From a virus, in the IMG/VR virus record IMGVR_UViG_3300049914_000152, positions 1-20,349 of that record: a stretch of 20,349 bases of DNA. One strand, 5' to 3'. The number at the start of each line of letters is the position of its first letter. The stretch's first letter is position 1. Made by a program: the position numbers and the translations under genes. The notes under the pieces are model-generated. The model was not told the origin of the DNA. It saw only the letters and a program-made list of their open reading frames with translations, and searched no databases. This document shows, in pieces, positions 6,924 through 19,525 of this stretch.

Positions 6924-6937
6924 GCGGACTGGGGAGG
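6924..6937 (+). promoter_or_regulatory. Leader motif copy 2
   Basis: GCGGACTGGGGAGG, a perfect copy, ends five bases before ATG 6943. It is preceded by CATAT, as is the copy at 14530. GGGGAGG can act as the ribosome-binding site of the first gene in this operon. Confidence 0.75.
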
Positions 6938-6942
6938 AAGCA

Positions 6943-7116
6943 ATGAAGGTAGTCACTGGGCACGGTACGTCCAAGCATGGTGCAGCGCCAGGGTTCAGCA
7001 GATACACCCGCGCCGCCAAGCGGTCGGATCGCCGTCAGTCTCTCACTCTAGCATGGATGCTCGTCACGCCACGTTATCAGCCGCGCTCCGCCGGCACGTT
7101 CGGACGTGCGGCATGA
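6943..7116 (+). CDS. Small basic protein, unknown
   Basis: 57 residues from ATG 6943. The start is chosen because the leader motif with its GGGGAGG site lies at the right distance. The product is rich in Arg, Lys, Ser and Gly (SRYTRAAKRSDRRQS) and is probably very basic, with no recognised domain. Its stop overlaps the next start (ATGA at 7113-7116). Position and translation signals are good, but the composition is not strongly protein-like. A longer ORF in another frame (from 6897) covers the same DNA and lacks a ribosome site. Confidence 0.5.
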   Translation: MKVVTGHGTSKHGAAPGFSRYTRAAKRSDRRQSLTLAWMLVTPRYQPRSAGTFGRAA

Positions 7117-7515: not shown

Positions 7516-8030
7516 GCGACTTACGGACGAAATACTTACACCAGGTGGTCATCATCCGTGACGGTTCGACGAGCGATGGGATGTACGGTTTGGTGACACA
7601 GATCATCGAAGGCTCTGAGACTCCTTTGACCGTGACATTCTGGCTTACCCAGGGTGTAAGGCACGAGAATTATTATGCGGCAGCCGACGTCGAGCTTACG
7701 ACTCAGGCATGGAACGACTTCCTTACTCGCGACTCAGAACTCAGGTGCATCTATGACAAGCACTACACCCACCTGTACTATATCTGCGGAAAGGGTGGCA
7801 GGGACATCAGCGGCTATCCGACGGTAAATAGAGCCTGGGCGCACTGGTTTAAAAATGACGAAGCGACAGCAGCATTGCACCGGTTGGTGCAGGAGGCAAC
7901 GAATGATCCATCCTCTCGTCCTATGGAGAGTACAGACAAATCAGACACAACTGGCAGCGGCAAAGGCGATGAAAGTATCACTGCCGACGTGGAAAACTTG
8001 GGAGAGCGGCGTGAGCCTTCCCAAAGTTGA
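7512..8030 (+). CDS. Unknown protein with disordered tail overlapping a regulator gene
   Basis: 172 residues from ATG 7512 (ATGA overlap with the previous stop). Residues 1-125 look like an ordinary globular protein: a beta-rich start (HQVVIIRDGSTSDGMYGLV) and many aromatic residues (KHYTHLYYICGKGG). From about residue 131 to the end the composition changes to Ser/Thr/Asp/Glu-rich. That part is read in a different frame across the start of the XRE regulator gene at 7903, an overlap of 128 bases. The tail may be a true overlapping extension or a sign that a stop codon was lost. No family recognised. Confidence 0.65.
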   Translation: MSDLRTKYLHQVVIIRDGSTSDGMYGLVTQIIEGSETPLTVTFWLTQGVRHENYYAAADVELTTQAWNDFLTRDSELRCIYDKHYTHLYYICGKGGRDISGYPTVNRAWAHWFKNDEATAALHRLVQEATNDPSSRPMESTDKSDTTGSGKGDESITADVENLGERREPSQS

Positions 8031-8097
8031 ACGCATGGCAAAGCTCACGAAACTGACTGGCGTAACGCGGGCGCAGCTCGAGACTGCCCGCGGATAA
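7903..8097 (+). CDS. XRE-family helix-turn-helix regulator
   Basis: 64 residues. ATG 7903 is fixed by a strong AGGAGG site five bases upstream, although it lies inside the preceding ORF. The sequence follows the XRE pattern: residues 7-20 LWRVQTNQTQLAAA (first helix and turn), recognition segment 23-36 ending TWKTWESG, then PKVERMAKLTKLTGV. This is the single-domain lambda Cro/CI-like DNA-binding fold. It is the last gene of its operon, with a leader-motif copy ten bases after its stop, so it could repress the promoters in this window. That target is inference. Confidence 0.8.
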   Translation: MIHPLVLWRVQTNQTQLAAAKAMKVSLPTWKTWESGVSLPKVERMAKLTKLTGVTRAQLETARG

Positions 8098-8106
8098 TAA
8101 CCACTA

Positions 8107-8120
8107 GCGGACTGGGGAGG
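8107..8120 (+). promoter_or_regulatory. Leader motif copy 3
   Basis: GCGGACTGGGGAGG, perfect, four bases before ATG 8125. An A/T-rich hexamer (GATAAT at 8093-8098) lies eight bases upstream and could be a -10 box; no good -35 box is seen. Confidence 0.75.
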
Positions 8121-8124
8121 TTCT

Positions 8125-8397
8125 ATGAATGCTTGGATCATTTTGTTGCTTATATGTATCGCTGCTTTCTGCGGGGCAGTCCTGGAACACAGGAGACTCC
8201 GGCAGGACCAGGAGTTCAGGATGCAGCATCTGCATACGTGCTACTTGGAAGTGATCAAGCAGAAACACAAACTCACCGAGACGCTTGCTGCGGAGCACGC
8301 CGAGCCGATTGATGTTATCCTTGACCGGCTGCTGGAAGATTGCCCGGACGAAAGCCAAGTCAAGACATTCGCCGCCGGGCAAGATCCCAGGGACTGA
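8125..8397 (+). CDS. Small protein with N-terminal membrane anchor
   Basis: 90 residues from ATG 8125, right after the leader motif. Residues 4-20 (WIILLLICIAAFCGAVL) form one membrane helix. Residues 22-70 are charged and probably helical (RRLRQDQEFRMQHLH, KQKHKLTETLAAEH), followed by an acidic end. It is first in the long operon running to 11387. The architecture recalls Rz-type spanin components or small phage membrane proteins, but no lysis neighbour supports that here. Unknown function. Confidence 0.7.
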   Translation: MNAWIILLLICIAAFCGAVLEHRRLRQDQEFRMQHLHTCYLEVIKQKHKLTETLAAEHAEPIDVILDRLLEDCPDESQVKTFAAGQDPRD

Positions 8398-10321: not shown

Positions 10322-11202
10322 ACCGCACGAAGATCGACTGGGCTGATTACAGTTGGAATCCTGTGACGGGCTGTCTGGGTCCCAACGGGGGCGGACCGTG
10401 CACCTATTGTTATGCCAAGCGTATTGCCGCACGGTTCGGTGCGGACACGTCTTACTTTGACAGTGCATATCCGGACCGCCCACATCTGCACTACATCCGG
10501 CTCGACGTCGAAGAAGAGTTCATTGACCTGAACTTCAAGGACCGGAACGGATACCCCATGGAACTGGGCAATCTCGAATGTCGTTCACTCTATCCCTTCA
10601 ACTTCGAGCCGACCTTCAACGAATATCGTCTGAGCGAGCCGCTGTGGGCCAAGAAGCCGTCACGAGTGTTCGTCTGCTCTATGGGTGAACTGTTTGGCAA
10701 CTGGGTGCCGGATGACTGGATCAGGCGGGTGCTCGCGGCGTGTGAGGCAGCCCCGCAGCACCAGTACCTGTTCCTCAGCAAGAACGCGGGCAGATATGAA
10801 CTCTTGTTCGGAAAGACGACCGTGCATCCGAACTGGTGGTTTGGAACGACGTGCGACACCCTAGACCATACGTTCTCAATGACCGTAGACGATCCAACAG
10901 GCGCGGCTATGATGCTCCTGCATCGCCGTGGTTGGCATACATGGGCGTCGGCAGAACCGCTCCTAGAGGACATTGCCCCTCGGTTCGACATGGCAGACGA
11001 GATGATCGACTGGTTGGTGCTCGGCGCGATGACCGGACCAGGAAGCAAAGGAGGGCAACCACAGCGAGAGTGGATCGCCAACCTGGCTATTGCTGCCGAT
11101 AATCATGGCATCCCGGTGTTCATGAAGCGCAGCCTGCAGACGTTGGTAGATGAGCCATTGATCCAGCAATACCCGAGGGCAATGACAAAGGAGGCAGCAT
11201 GA
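10318..11202 (+). CDS. DUF5131 / phage Gp37-Gp68 family protein (radical-SAM-like)
   Basis: 294 residues. The N-terminus IDWADYSWNPVTGC (6-19), then a Gly-rich loop and CTYCYAKR (28-35), is the family signature of DUF5131, with three cysteines at 19, 28 and 31 that could hold an iron-sulphur cluster. Further family-like segments are VFVCSMGELFGNWVPDDW, YLFLSKN, WWFGTTC and the C-terminal DWLVLGAMTGPGSK followed by IPVFMKR. These proteins are frequent in phages and look distantly related to radical SAM enzymes; the reaction is not established. The cysteine spacing (x8 then x2) differs from the classical CxxxCxxC. Near the end of the operon that starts at 8125. Confidence 0.88.
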   Translation: MNRTKIDWADYSWNPVTGCLGPNGGGPCTYCYAKRIAARFGADTSYFDSAYPDRPHLHYIRLDVEEEFIDLNFKDRNGYPMELGNLECRSLYPFNFEPTFNEYRLSEPLWAKKPSRVFVCSMGELFGNWVPDDWIRRVLAACEAAPQHQYLFLSKNAGRYELLFGKTTVHPNWWFGTTCDTLDHTFSMTVDDPTGAAMMLLHRRGWHTWASAEPLLEDIAPRFDMADEMIDWLVLGAMTGPGSKGGQPQREWIANLAIAADNHGIPVFMKRSLQTLVDEPLIQQYPRAMTKEAA

Positions 11203-11387
11203 CGCTTTGTCTCCTTAACGGCAAGCTGGCAAAGATATTTGACTGCAAGGCGTTATGCTGTCTTGCTGTCATGAAGGGTAAACCGCTTGACAATTTTGGC
11301 AAACGCTTGCAGAATAATGGCCGCCCCGACGGAGCTGACTCCCCAGTCCGCACGCCGGGGTTACGTATTACTAGACTGGGGACTTGA
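11199..11387 (+). CDS. Small ORF overlapping the replication control region
   Basis: 62 residues from ATG 11199, with AAAGGAGG six bases upstream and an ATGA overlap with the DUF5131 stop, so the start looks real. The first 30 residues (MTLCLLNGKLAKIFDCKALCC) contain four cysteines. The second half is read through a promoter and the inverted leader motif at 11337-11351, so its codons there may be constrained by regulation. It could be a true last gene of the operon or only a ribosome-accessible leader. Confidence 0.45.
   Translation: MTLCLLNGKLAKIFDCKALCCLAVMKGKPLDNFGKRLQNNGRPDGADSPVRTPGLRITRLGT
11287..11315 (+). promoter_or_regulatory. Promoter P1 of the replication region
   Basis: TTGACA (11287-11292), 17 bases, CAGAAT (11310-11315). 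A transcript would start near 11322 and soon contain GACTCCCCAGTCCGC, the exact complement of the leader motif. Confidence 0.5.
11337..11351 (-). promoter_or_regulatory. Leader motif, reversed copy
   Basis: On the minus strand this reads GCGGACTGGGGAGTC, identical over all 15 bases to the copy at 19361-19375. No gene starts to its left on the minus strand, so it is not a ribosome site there. It faces the copy at 11374. Confidence 0.75.
11374..11382 (+). promoter_or_regulatory. Leader motif, partial copy facing 11337
   Basis: GACTGGGGA, preceded by CTA in place of GCG, abuts the -35 box of promoter P2. Together with the reversed copy it makes an 11-base inverted repeat with one mismatch (11339-11349 against 11374-11384). 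It could be a DNA operator or an RNA hairpin. Confidence 0.6.
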
Positions 11388-11411
11388 CAGGCAAATGAAT
11401 CTGACTATAGT
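11384..11411 (+). promoter_or_regulatory. Promoter P2 before the replication gene
   Basis: TTGACA (11384-11389), 16-base spacer, TATAGT (11406-11411): a strong sigma-70 match. The transcript would begin near 11418 and carry a leader of about 160 to 200 bases before the replication-like ORF. Confidence 0.65.
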
Positions 11412-11421
11412 TCGTGATAGA

Positions 11422-11573
11422 AGGCGGCTTGGGACAGCCAGCTACTGTTCGACAACCAACCGCATAGGGCCGCCGCCTCCTACGTCAACGCTTGCGGGTT
11501 ATGCGGTGAGAGTCTTTTCAGGGTCCAGCCTCCCACCAATAGAAACGGATAAGCCCTTATTGGGTTTGGAGGC
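11422..11573 (+). ncRNA. Structured leader of the replication gene
   Basis: No gene fits between promoter P2 and the ORF at 11624. Two long inverted repeats are visible: AGGCGGC (11422-11428) with GCCGCCT (11472-11478), and GCCTCC plus ACCAAT (11528-11540) with ATTGGGT plus GGAGGC (11559-11573). The second encloses the only purine-rich ribosome-like site, GGAGG at 11568-11572, in its 3' arm, so folding would hide it. This suggests a regulated 5' leader or a small RNA. I match it to no known riboswitch. Confidence 0.4.
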
Positions 11574-11623
11574 GTCCCACGTCTAGCCGAATTCTGTTCG
11601 ATTCAATTCTCACATCAGAAACG

Positions 11624-12100
11624 TTGGATAAGCTCTGTCCCGAGCAGGAAAACCTCTGGTACCGCCTTCTGGTATGCGCCGACGACTACGGTTGTGCTGA
11701 CGCTCGCCCGATCATTGTCTTGGCGCAATGTTATCCTCTCCGCATCGGCAAGATTCAGCCTGAGCAAGTAGCGGACTGGCTGCAGAACCTTGCCCAGGTT
11801 GGCCTCATTACCCTGTATCAAGTCGAGGGCAAGGATTACCTGCAAGTATCCAAGTGGGAAGAGCATCAACGCATCCGCACTAAGCGTCACAAGTATCCAT
11901 TACCTGCTGCAGACGGCAACAGCTCACAAGACATTGCGACCACTCTGAACAAGTTGGCGCAATCTGCGGCAATCTGCGGCAATCTGCGGCAATCTGCGCA
12001 GATTGCGCCTTCTTCTGAATCCATATCATTACATTCTGAATCCATTCCGAATCCTCCAGACCCTCTTCTGGCTAAACATGGAAGCATAGGACAAAGATAA
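11624..12100 (+). CDS. Replication-initiation/replisome-organizer-like protein, start uncertain
   Basis: 158 residues from TTG 11624, the first usable bacterial start. The sequence LCPEQENLWYRLLVCADDYGC, then LITLYQVEGKDYLQVSKWEEHQRIR, is typical of the N-terminal domain of phage replisome-organizer or DnaD-like replication proteins. Family-like residues continue upstream of the TTG (SSRILFDSILTSETL, frame open from 11543), but no ATG or GTG exists there. ACG 11579 sits six bases after GGAGG, and ATT 11591 and CTG 11594 are other candidates. The C-terminus after the wHTH-like part is low complexity, encoded by 10-base tandem repeats, and ends early compared with the family's usual 250 or more residues. 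The gene may be truncated or may use a rare start. Confidence 0.65.
   Translation: MDKLCPEQENLWYRLLVCADDYGCADARPIIVLAQCYPLRIGKIQPEQVADWLQNLAQVGLITLYQVEGKDYLQVSKWEEHQRIRTKRHKYPLPAADGNSSQDIATTLNKLAQSAAICGNLRQSAQIAPSSESISLHSESIPNPPDPLLAKHGSIGQR
11959..12006 (+). repeat. Iteron-like tandem repeat, possible replication origin
   Basis: GCAATCTGCG occurs four times in perfect tandem (11959-11968, 11969-11978, 11979-11988, 11989-11998). It is followed by an inverted copy, CGCAGATTGC (11997-12006), making the 18-base palindrome GCAATCTGCGCAGATTGC. The array is inside the putative replication gene, as the origin iterons of lambda lie inside its O gene, and an A/T-richer segment with its own direct repeat follows. 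An alternative is simple coding repetition. Confidence 0.6.
12013..12045 (+). repeat. Direct repeat TTCTGAATCCAT
   Basis: TTCTGAATCCAT at 12013-12024 and again at 12034-12045, with a partial third copy TTCCGAATCC at about 12046-12055. The spacing is 21 bases, two helical turns. It directly follows the iterons and is A/T-richer than the surroundings, so it could be the unwinding part of an origin. Confidence 0.5.
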
Positions 12101-12121: not shown

Positions 12122-12135
12122 GCGGACTGGGGAGG
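12122..12135 (+). promoter_or_regulatory. Leader motif copy 6
   Basis: GCGGACTGGGGAGG, perfect, six bases before ATG 12142 of the antirepressor. TTATTG lies directly upstream; no clear -35/-10 pair is seen. Confidence 0.75.
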
Positions 12136-12141
12136 TCTATT

Positions 12142-12855
12142 ATGACAGATGAACTGCAAGTCTGGAACTACAACGCACATGAGATACGGACGGTCACAAG
12201 GGAAGGTGAGCCGTGGTTCGTGGCTCAAGATGTATGTGCGATTCTCGGTTTGGGAGACACGAGCAAGGCGGTCCAGAATCTCGAAGATGCCGAAAAGGGC
12301 ACGACCAGTGTTCCCACCCTTGGTGGTGTGCAGTCTATGACCATTGTCAACGAGTCGGGCATGTACGCACTCGTCTTCAAGAGCCGCAAGGTCGAGGCAA
12401 AGGCCTTCCGGCTATGGGTCACTGGCACGGTCCTTCCACAGATCCGCAAGACCGGGTCCTATTCCTTGCCCTCGAGCAAGAACGTCTACGGCATCCTCAG
12501 GGGCCTCGTGGATGACCTCGAGCGTCAGGACCAGCAGATCGCCGCGGTGAGTCAACGCGTCGACAAGATTGCCCAGGGGATCCCTGCCCTACCAGTGCCG
12601 GAGTCAGCGGCTTTCGAGTACGTAACTCCAACGCAGATCGGCAGGATGTTCTCGCCGCGCATGTCCGGCATAGAGACCAATTTGCGTCTCCAATTCGCCG
12701 GCTTGCAGTACAGGGTGGGTGGCGAGTGGGTTCCTTCTGACAAGGGGAAGGACTACGTCAAGACTCTCCCGGTCCAGCTAGAGAATGGCAAATGCGTCTA
12801 TCAACTCCATTGGCAGCGCCGGGTGTTTGATATGATCTGCGAGGTAACGACATGA
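12142..12855 (+). CDS. BRO-family antirepressor
   Basis: 237 residues. Residues 5-105 form a BRO-N domain: LQVWNYNAHEIRTV, EPWFVAQDVCAILGLGDTSKAV, then VNESGMYALVFKSRK and the ending FRLWVTGTVLPQIRKTGSY. A linker helix (about 120-150) follows, and the last 80 residues (YVTPTQIGRMFS, then LQYRVGGEWVPSDKGKDY) resemble the C-terminal DNA-binding part of phage antirepressors of the Ant/KilA-C type. Such proteins bind DNA or repressors and help switch between lysogeny and lysis. It is the first gene after a leader-motif copy and overlaps the next gene by four bases. Confidence 0.88.
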   Translation: MTDELQVWNYNAHEIRTVTREGEPWFVAQDVCAILGLGDTSKAVQNLEDAEKGTTSVPTLGGVQSMTIVNESGMYALVFKSRKVEAKAFRLWVTGTVLPQIRKTGSYSLPSSKNVYGILRGLVDDLERQDQQIAAVSQRVDKIAQGIPALPVPESAAFEYVTPTQIGRMFSPRMSGIETNLRLQFAGLQYRVGGEWVPSDKGKDYVKTLPVQLENGKCVYQLHWQRRVFDMICEVTT

Positions 12856-14502: not shown

Positions 14503-14521
14503 TATACAGCGGACTGGGGAG
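14503..14521 (+). promoter_or_regulatory. -10-like box plus leader motif copy 7
   Basis: TATACA (14503-14508) is directly followed by GCGGACTGGGGAG (14509-14521), seven bases (GACATAT region) before ATG 14528. No strong -35 box is seen; a GC-rich hairpin occupies that place. Confidence 0.7.
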
Positions 14522-14527
14522 AGACAT

Positions 14528-15055
14528 ATGCGGACTGGGGATCTCGTAAGGCATACTCCGTTACGTCGCACGGCATTCAAGAACATCGGGCGAAGCTCTG
14601 AAGGGGGCGTTCGAACGTGCAAGGTCGGCAAAGGCATTGTGGCTGCGCAGATACGCAGACGCTGTCTGACGGCCTTACGAAACGAGAACGACACAATCTG
14701 TGGCGACATCGTTCGCTTCCGGGACGGCATGGTCTGCCGTAAATGTCATCAGCATGTCGAAGGGCGCAACGCCCAGTGGTCCCATATCTTCGTCCGGGAA
14801 CTGCTCGGCACGCGCTGGAATTCTCGTAACGCTGTTCTGCTCGGCTCGGACTGTCACCATGGATGGTGGGAGGGTTTGAGTCGGAAGGAGCAACTCGCCT
14901 GGGCGCGGACCCAACTAGGGGAAGGCGAGCTCGATCAACTGTGGGCTGAGTCGATGGCGCTGCTCCACGATCGACAAGCCTTCTACGAATCTGAGAACGC
15001 CAGGCTCAAAGCCGAATACCGCACACTCACCGGGCATGCATGGGGCAAGTCATGA
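14528..15055 (+). CDS. NinG-like/HNH-type phage recombination protein
   Basis: 175 residues. Residues 70-73 (CRKC), 86 (H in AQWSHI), 95-102 (TRWNSRNA) and 109-111 (CHH) give the order C-x2-C, H, N, C-x-H seen in NinG-type phage proteins and related HNH nucleases. In lambda, NinG works with recombination functions on branched DNA. The N-terminus (HTPLRRTAFKNIGR) is basic and typical of NinG-like proteins. A second copy of the leader motif (14530-14541) overlaps its first codons. It overlaps the next gene (ATGA). Confidence 0.7.
   Translation: MRTGDLVRHTPLRRTAFKNIGRSSEGGVRTCKVGKGIVAAQIRRRCLTALRNENDTICGDIVRFRDGMVCRKCHQHVEGRNAQWSHIFVRELLGTRWNSRNAVLLGSDCHHGWWEGLSRKEQLAWARTQLGEGELDQLWAESMALLHDRQAFYESENARLKAEYRTLTGHAWGKS
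14530..14541 (+). promoter_or_regulatory. Leader motif copy 8, over the start codon
   Basis: GCGGACTGGGGA begins with the G of ATG 14528-14530 and is translated as part of MRTGD. It lies 21 bases, two helical turns, after copy 7, and its upstream context ACATAT matches that of copy 2. Confidence 0.65.
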
Positions 15056-19344: not shown

Positions 19345-19375
19345 TATAAATGCAACAATTGCGGACTGGGGAGTC
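19345..19375 (+). promoter_or_regulatory. -10-like box plus leader motif copy 9
   Basis: TATAAA (19345-19350) and, ten bases on, GCGGACTGGGGAGTC (19361-19375), identical over 15 bases to the reversed copy at 11337-11351. ATG 19379 follows three bases later. No good -35 box at the right distance. Confidence 0.7.
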
Positions 19376-19378
19376 TAC

Positions 19379-19525
19379 ATGTTGAACGAGTATGCCGAGG
19401 CCTTGGAAGCGCAATATGCCGTGTTGTTCCCGGTGGCTTGTCATACTCCCCGAAGCAGATCCCCCATGTACCACGGTCAGGCCCGCTGTTTGCCCGTGAA
19501 CGCATGGGGGATTTTGCATGTCTAG
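19379..19525 (+). CDS. Possible 48-residue leader ORF
   Basis: ATG 19379 to TAG 19525. The start is supported by the leader motif, whose GGGGAG lies about seven bases upstream, as for the other motif-led genes. The product (MLNEYAEALEAQYAVLFPVA, then CHTPRSRSPMYHGQARCLPV) has no recognised domain. Its second half overlaps a strong hairpin, so the peptide may be a leader whose translation affects the downstream RNA. Confidence 0.45.
   Translation: MLNEYAEALEAQYAVLFPVACHTPRSRSPMYHGQARCLPVNAWGILHV
19459..19512 (+). terminator. Hairpin followed by TTTT: terminator or attenuator candidate
   Basis: ATCCCCCATG (19459-19468) pairs perfectly with CATGGGGGAT (19503-19512); an inner stem CACGG/CCGTG (19472-19476 with 19494-19498) shortens the loop. 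T residues follow at 19512-19515 (GGGGGATTTTG). It lies within the 48-residue ORF, an arrangement typical of attenuation. Confidence 0.45.

Follow-up and report, generated by a model that had tools for sequence, protein, structure and literature searches.

A lone reversed copy of a start-site repeat lies in a predicted hairpin RNA upstream of a phage antirepressor gene

We analyzed a linear virus record from IMG/VR (IMGVR_UViG_3300049914_000152; 20,349 bp, hereafter the window) in which a 13-base motif, GCGGACTGGGGAG, lies 5-7 nt before the ATG of five genes and only on the plus strand. These copies are at 6924-6936 (before open reading frame (ORF) 6943-7116), 8107-8119 (before ORF 8125-8397), 12122-12134 (before a gene for a Bro-N antirepressor), 14509-14521 (before ORF 14528-15055, which has a weak NinG/HNH match), and 19361-19373 (before ORF 19379-19525, which encodes 48 amino acids). 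If up to three mismatches are allowed, the window contains 11 matches to the motif; shuffled sequences averaged 2.8, and none of 100 shuffles reached 11. The motif family in the window is not due to chance.

The only exact reversed copy in the window is at 11339-11352, where the minus strand reads TGCGGACTGGGGAG. It lies upstream of the replication initiation gene and faces a partial forward copy of nine bases, GACTGGGGA (11374-11382). The inverted match between 11338-11348 and 11374-11384 spans 11 bases with one mismatch. To either side are two promoter-like sites on the plus strand: P1 (TTGACA-17-CAGAAT, 11287-11315) and P2 (TTGACA-16-TATAGT, 11384-11411), whose -35 box adjoins the forward copy. 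The region has three such promoter-like sites, versus 0.8 expected from shuffles. A preliminary description of this locus had noted facing motif copies between two promoters and had argued that, away from a start codon, the motif does not act as a ribosome-binding site. We read the same arrangement directly from the sequence, and we agree on both points.

The reversed copy sits within a predicted hairpin (11323-11361, plus strand) at what would be the 5' end of the P1 transcript. The apical loop is CCCC, and the antisense segment CTCCCCAGTCCGC (11339-11351), which is the reverse complement of the start-site motif, occupies the loop and the 3' arm. Roughly 1 in 4000 random segments of the window are equally stable and hairpin-shaped. 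The start-site copies, folded by the same procedure, gave no comparable hairpins. We compared this region to relatives, which are metagenomic fragments retrieved using the replication protein and a conserved ORF of 88 amino acids as queries. In one of these (L124, on contig G002), 126 bp align without gaps to 11264-11389 at 79% identity, and the flanks are unrelated. The L124 counterpart of 11323-11361 folds into a superimposable hairpin, also with a CCCC loop, but with a different stem; compensated changes between the two stems include C-G to A-U, G-C to C-G, and G-C to A-U pairs. We rejected the idea that this block encodes a conserved small protein (ORF 11199-11387 spans the site): the 27 differences to L124 are spread evenly across codon positions (9/10/8), and the overlapping ORF therefore leaves the conservation unexplained.

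Hairpins of the same shape are predicted in six related contigs, and between 0 and 3.4% of random segments from these contigs equal them in shape and stability. Both boxes of P1 are conserved in G002 and G005, and a site similar to P2 is present in G012 and G005. In all seven contigs (the window and the six relatives), the hairpin starts 27-30 nt after a TTGACA box, and this constant distance places it at about +1 of the transcript.

The antisense segment changes together with the start-site motif. We identified five versions of the motif (GCGGACTGGGGAG, AGCAGACTTGGGG, GCAGACTAGGGAG, ATCGATCTGGGAGG, and ATCGATCTAGGAGG), each with a matching antisense loop. In G005, the motif is AGCAGACTTGGGG and precedes six starts; a single reversed copy is at the equivalent place after a P1-like promoter, within its own hairpin. 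(MAFFT misaligned the G005 loop, so we compared this lineage by eye and by folding.) Relative to the window, both the loop and the target motif of G005 differ by a one-base insertion. In G012, GCAGACTAGGGAG precedes two starts and has one reversed copy, in a hairpin. Similarly, G013, G014, and G015 have ATCGATCTGGGAGGATC or ATCGATCTAGGAGGATC and one reversed copy, in a hairpin. The joint changes of loop and target among the relatives include G-C to A-U at several places. The predicted energy of the loop-motif duplex averages -35.7 kcal/mol within a set, compared to -21.8 kcal/mol for the loops and motifs of different sets; of the 120 possible assignments of loops to motifs, the true one scored best.

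Two variations on the start-site copies may be mentioned here. A second motif copy (14530-14541, plus strand) lies immediately inside ORF 14528 (ATG CGG ACT GGG GAT), so that two copies 21 nt apart flank the start codon; this pair also occurs in G001, G002, and L240 (contig G012). And G012 (L255/L256/L283) has two Bro-N antirepressor genes on one contig, with differing types of start-site motif, ACAGACTAGGGAG and CGATCTGGGAGGATC.

We propose, with reasonable confidence, that an antisense hairpin RNA is transcribed from P1 and prevents translation of the genes that carry the motif. The proposal rests on what sequence comparison gives: a predicted hairpin, its constant place after the -35 box, and a loop and target motif that have changed jointly across five versions. 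If P1 is active, the first ~40 nt of its RNA would fold into a hairpin that presents CUCCCCAGUCCGC, the antisense of the motif GCGGACUGGGGAG. Five other genes in the 20-kb fragment, including the Bro-N antirepressor, have this motif overlapping their ribosome-binding sites. The hairpin loop would start pairing with the GGGG of the target, pairing would then extend along the 3' arm of the hairpin, and the ribosome would be kept off. The RNA would bind separate mRNAs, or perhaps the Bro-N message within its own transcript, and by repressing them one small RNA would silence a set of phage genes together. It might also have a role in immunity. The proposed key target is the Bro-N gene (12142-12855, plus strand; Pfam Bro-N, 5e-23; PHROG anti-repressor Ant, 2e-49). 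The motif precedes this gene in all 10 motif-bearing relatives or contig sets. The hairpin is 0.8 kb from the gene in the window; in the six contigs where we measured the distance, it lies 0.8-2.2 kb upstream of the gene and on the gene's strand.

The alternative that survives best is that the motif copies are DNA sites for a phage repressor. The facing pair could be a dimeric operator, or each copy could be a single asymmetric site, as in L5-type mycobacteriophages; the copies at start codons would then be additional sites. The stoperators of L5-type phages are 13-bp asymmetric repeats, mostly in one orientation, that are scattered through the genome. The copies in the window are likewise short, asymmetric, scattered, and mostly in one orientation; furthermore, the facing pair lies between two promoter-like sites and touches the -35 box of P2, and the phage encodes both a helix-turn-helix protein and an antirepressor. 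But the start-site copies are nearly always directly before an ATG, and a protein site does not need a hairpin with a variable stem around the only reversed copy. In contrast to stoperators, an RNA role is indicated here by the antisense hairpin and by the placement of the copies at start codons.

The preliminary description had suggested specifically that a dimeric repressor, for example the XRE protein (7855-8097), uses the facing pair as its operator. We do not support this, as the motif does not track the XRE protein, nor does the forward half track the reversed half. The XRE protein is 94% identical in G004 and 88% identical in G010, yet both lack the reversed copy in the available contigs, and the motif of G010 is different as well; in G002, the XRE protein is just 47% identical, yet the pair is kept exactly. 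The presence of the motif and of its reversed copy is thus uncoupled from the identity of the XRE protein, so the site does not change together with this regulator, which is evidence against XRE as the reader of the motif. As for the dyad symmetry, the inverted pair does recur in L124, with its two halves still 21 nt apart and a changed spacer sequence. It is broken in G005, where the forward half no longer matches the motif (TATGGGGC) and GGGG alone remains. In G012, the forward half is altered (GACTGGGGC versus GCAGACTAGGGAG) and does not co-vary with the reversed half. Given that the forward half was lost in G005 and did not change with the reversed half in G012, the facing pair is not a conserved unit. 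Overall, we consider repressor sites to be unlikely.

Still less probable, in our view, is that the motif is an RNA element for an RNA-binding protein (a translational repressor or activator), with a transcript of the minus strand acting as a hairpin decoy with a GGGG loop. The minus-strand RNA folds about equally well, and conservation of the motif does reach past its Shine-Dalgarno part. However, it is on the plus strand that a -35-like box lies 27-30 nt before the hairpin in all seven contigs, and we found no minus-strand promoter near the site.

The least probable explanation is a functional hairpin made by the two facing copies (11340-11348 paired with 11374-11382), which would act ahead of P2 as an attenuator or switch in P1 transcripts: the copies would form a perfect 9-bp helix that is about as stable in the window as the local hairpin (-20.4 versus -20.1 kcal/mol), and a downstream forward copy could pair in six of seven contigs, but in G002 the local hairpin is better by 5 kcal/mol (-28.6 versus -23.4 kcal/mol), G005 retains just the GGGG, and no terminator-like site lies downstream. 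An RNA hairpin in P1 transcripts was the other suggestion of the preliminary description, and it was the better of the two, except that the conserved hairpin is local and forms around the reversed copy alone.

An independent case comes from cluster K1 mycobacteriophages. Start-associated sequences (SAS) are 13-bp asymmetric repeats that many non-structural genes carry, in one orientation, at their ribosome-binding sites and that are longer than a Shine-Dalgarno sequence; they are known from cluster K mycobacteriophages and from Microbacterium phages of cluster EF (PMC3203893, PMC7302621). SAS have been contrasted with L5-type stoperators (PMC3203893). The window's motif fits the description of SAS, as it is an asymmetric repeat of about 13 bp near several start codons in a single orientation, but it does not match the cluster K consensus (GGGATAGGAGCCC versus GCGGACTGGGGAG), so it is a different repeat of a like kind. 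In cluster K1 phages, just one copy of the SAS is reversed (PMC3203893, PMC7302621), and in Adephagia, Anaya, and CrimD, we found that this copy is in the loop of a long hairpin. (The K1 copies, each in the loop of a long hairpin, are at 33683 in L186, 34871 in L187, and 33836 in L188.) The K1 hairpin is flanked by genes 92 and 93, at the apparent start of late transcription (PMC11373665). Across seven K1-like phages, the loop is nearly invariant (one has an extra C), and the stem varies with pairing retained. With Amohnition added to these seven, 99.2% of cells in the stem alignment are paired, compared to 34-50% if each partner is shifted by one to three columns. In a shuffle control, the K1 hairpin was of only moderate significance (25 of 500). 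The two systems share a short repeat at start sites in one orientation and a lone reversed copy in a hairpin loop. They differ in the sequence of the repeat, the genomes are unrelated, and the K1 hairpin is not before a replication/antirepressor operon.

Several observations weigh against an antisense RNA that silences the motif-bearing genes. The permutation test over the 120 assignments of loops to motifs ignores relatedness. We picked the boundaries of the hairpin for the best fold, which flatters the z-scores, and the G014 hairpin is unremarkable when taken alone. The -10 boxes are weak in G013-G015. We found no terminator after the hairpin, so it might be part of a leader instead of a free small RNA. 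Two relatives, G010 and the phage represented by G001 and G004 (counted as one because the contigs are from the same sample and overlap by 132 nt), carry the motif at start sites, but their available contigs contain no reversed copy. Another, L276, keeps the promoter and has lost the hairpin. Among cluster K phages, Keshu, Pixie, and Pharb do not have an antisense loop at this place, and the loops of Amohnition and Krueger are altered while their SAS are unchanged. In Microbacterium phage AnnaSerena, SAS-like repeats are present, but the 37 kb that we examined contain no reversed copy. Because of these cluster K exceptions and AnnaSerena, the link between hairpin and SAS is not universal.

L276 is a natural loss of the antisense hairpin. 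This relative keeps the P1 -35 region and four start-site motifs, and an unrelated stem-loop replaces the hairpin, in the region of 8877 (minus strand). In the sequence available for them, three motif-bearing relatives are without the hairpin, so the motif can outlast it, perhaps serving as a strong ribosome-binding site.

The role of SAS was not settled by their first description in 2011, nor by those cluster K papers of 2024-2025 that we consulted. A matching antisense hairpin RNA would be a concrete and readily testable function for them, including in Adephagia, which is already under study. We suggest tentatively, and with somewhat more doubt than belief, that the start-associated repeats of unrelated phages are at least partly the target half of a two-part RNA system, in which a phage hairpin RNA silences every gene that carries the repeat. 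Joint divergence of loop and repeat would then give RNA-based specificity (immunity) groups, and in K1 phages the RNA might shut off early genes as late transcription starts. If this is true, then a regulon is controlled by one phage RNA via a purpose-made repeat, with specificities that shift in step.

By analogy, the nearest working model is the c4 RNA of phages P1 and P7, which pairs around the ribosome-binding site of an antirepressor, blocks it, and underlies the heteroimmunity of P1 and P7 (reviewed in PMC12197685). The c4 RNA is ~77 nt, has three stem-loops, is processed by RNase P, and has two antisense loops, a' and b' (PMC5320573). Like c4, the predicted hairpin RNA is upstream of an antirepressor gene and is complementary to its ribosome-binding site, and here too loop and target come in versions that vary from one relative to another. 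Unlike c4, the window has a single-loop hairpin at +1 that would address at least five genes; instead of three stem-loops with two antisense loops, we found one conserved hairpin. There was no match in Rfam, and the c4 model (RF01695) did not match 11150-11750 at E up to 5, so by Rfam the hairpin is not a member of the c4 family. Another parallel is RNAIII and the Rsa RNAs of Staphylococcus, whose accessible UCCC loops pair with the Shine-Dalgarno sequences of several mRNAs (PMC3861533). These also set a C-rich hairpin loop against several Shine-Dalgarno sequences, but with a short seed and diverse host genes, whereas the window has a 13-nt match to a dedicated phage repeat. The new element is one loop that addresses a set of genes via a dedicated repeat.

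Searches beyond these relatives added little. Matches to the facing pair elsewhere in the viral collection (CCCCAGTCC-N-GGACTGGGG, 41 contigs; GACTGGGGACTTGACA, 9 others) were at unrelated loci. Many phage contigs (L146-L184) share a palindrome of ~35 bp, CCCCAGTCC-N17-GGACTGGGG, near a sequence like GACCTCCAGGTC; this is unrelated to the window's locus. Scanning viral contigs for the exact motif followed by ATG gave mostly single matches, and L080, with three motif copies, proved to be weak. In bacterial genomes, the motif had scattered single matches among the matches listed, and aligning the replication protein found nothing. The annotated phage collection contained no relative beyond short pieces of antirepressor DNA and distant replication proteins.

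Finally, we note some features of the replication initiation gene (11579-12100, plus strand; PHROG 2149) and its surroundings. By homology, it starts with the ACG at 11579, which is possibly a weak non-standard start. The codon at 11579-11581 is ACG in the window and in L217/L123 and ATG in L124, L125, and L210, with GGAGG 6 nt upstream. A hairpin at 11528-11573 (CCTCCCACCAATA ... TATTGGGTTTGGAGG) would hide this GGAGG and is identical in L217/L123. A second inverted repeat, GGCGGC/GCCGCC, is at about 11423-11480 and recurs in L240. Within the gene, at 11950-12014, there are tandem CAATCTGCGG repeats and an inverted repeat, which are iteron-like, as in a lambda-type origin. At this place, L210 carries another repeat, of 20 nt.
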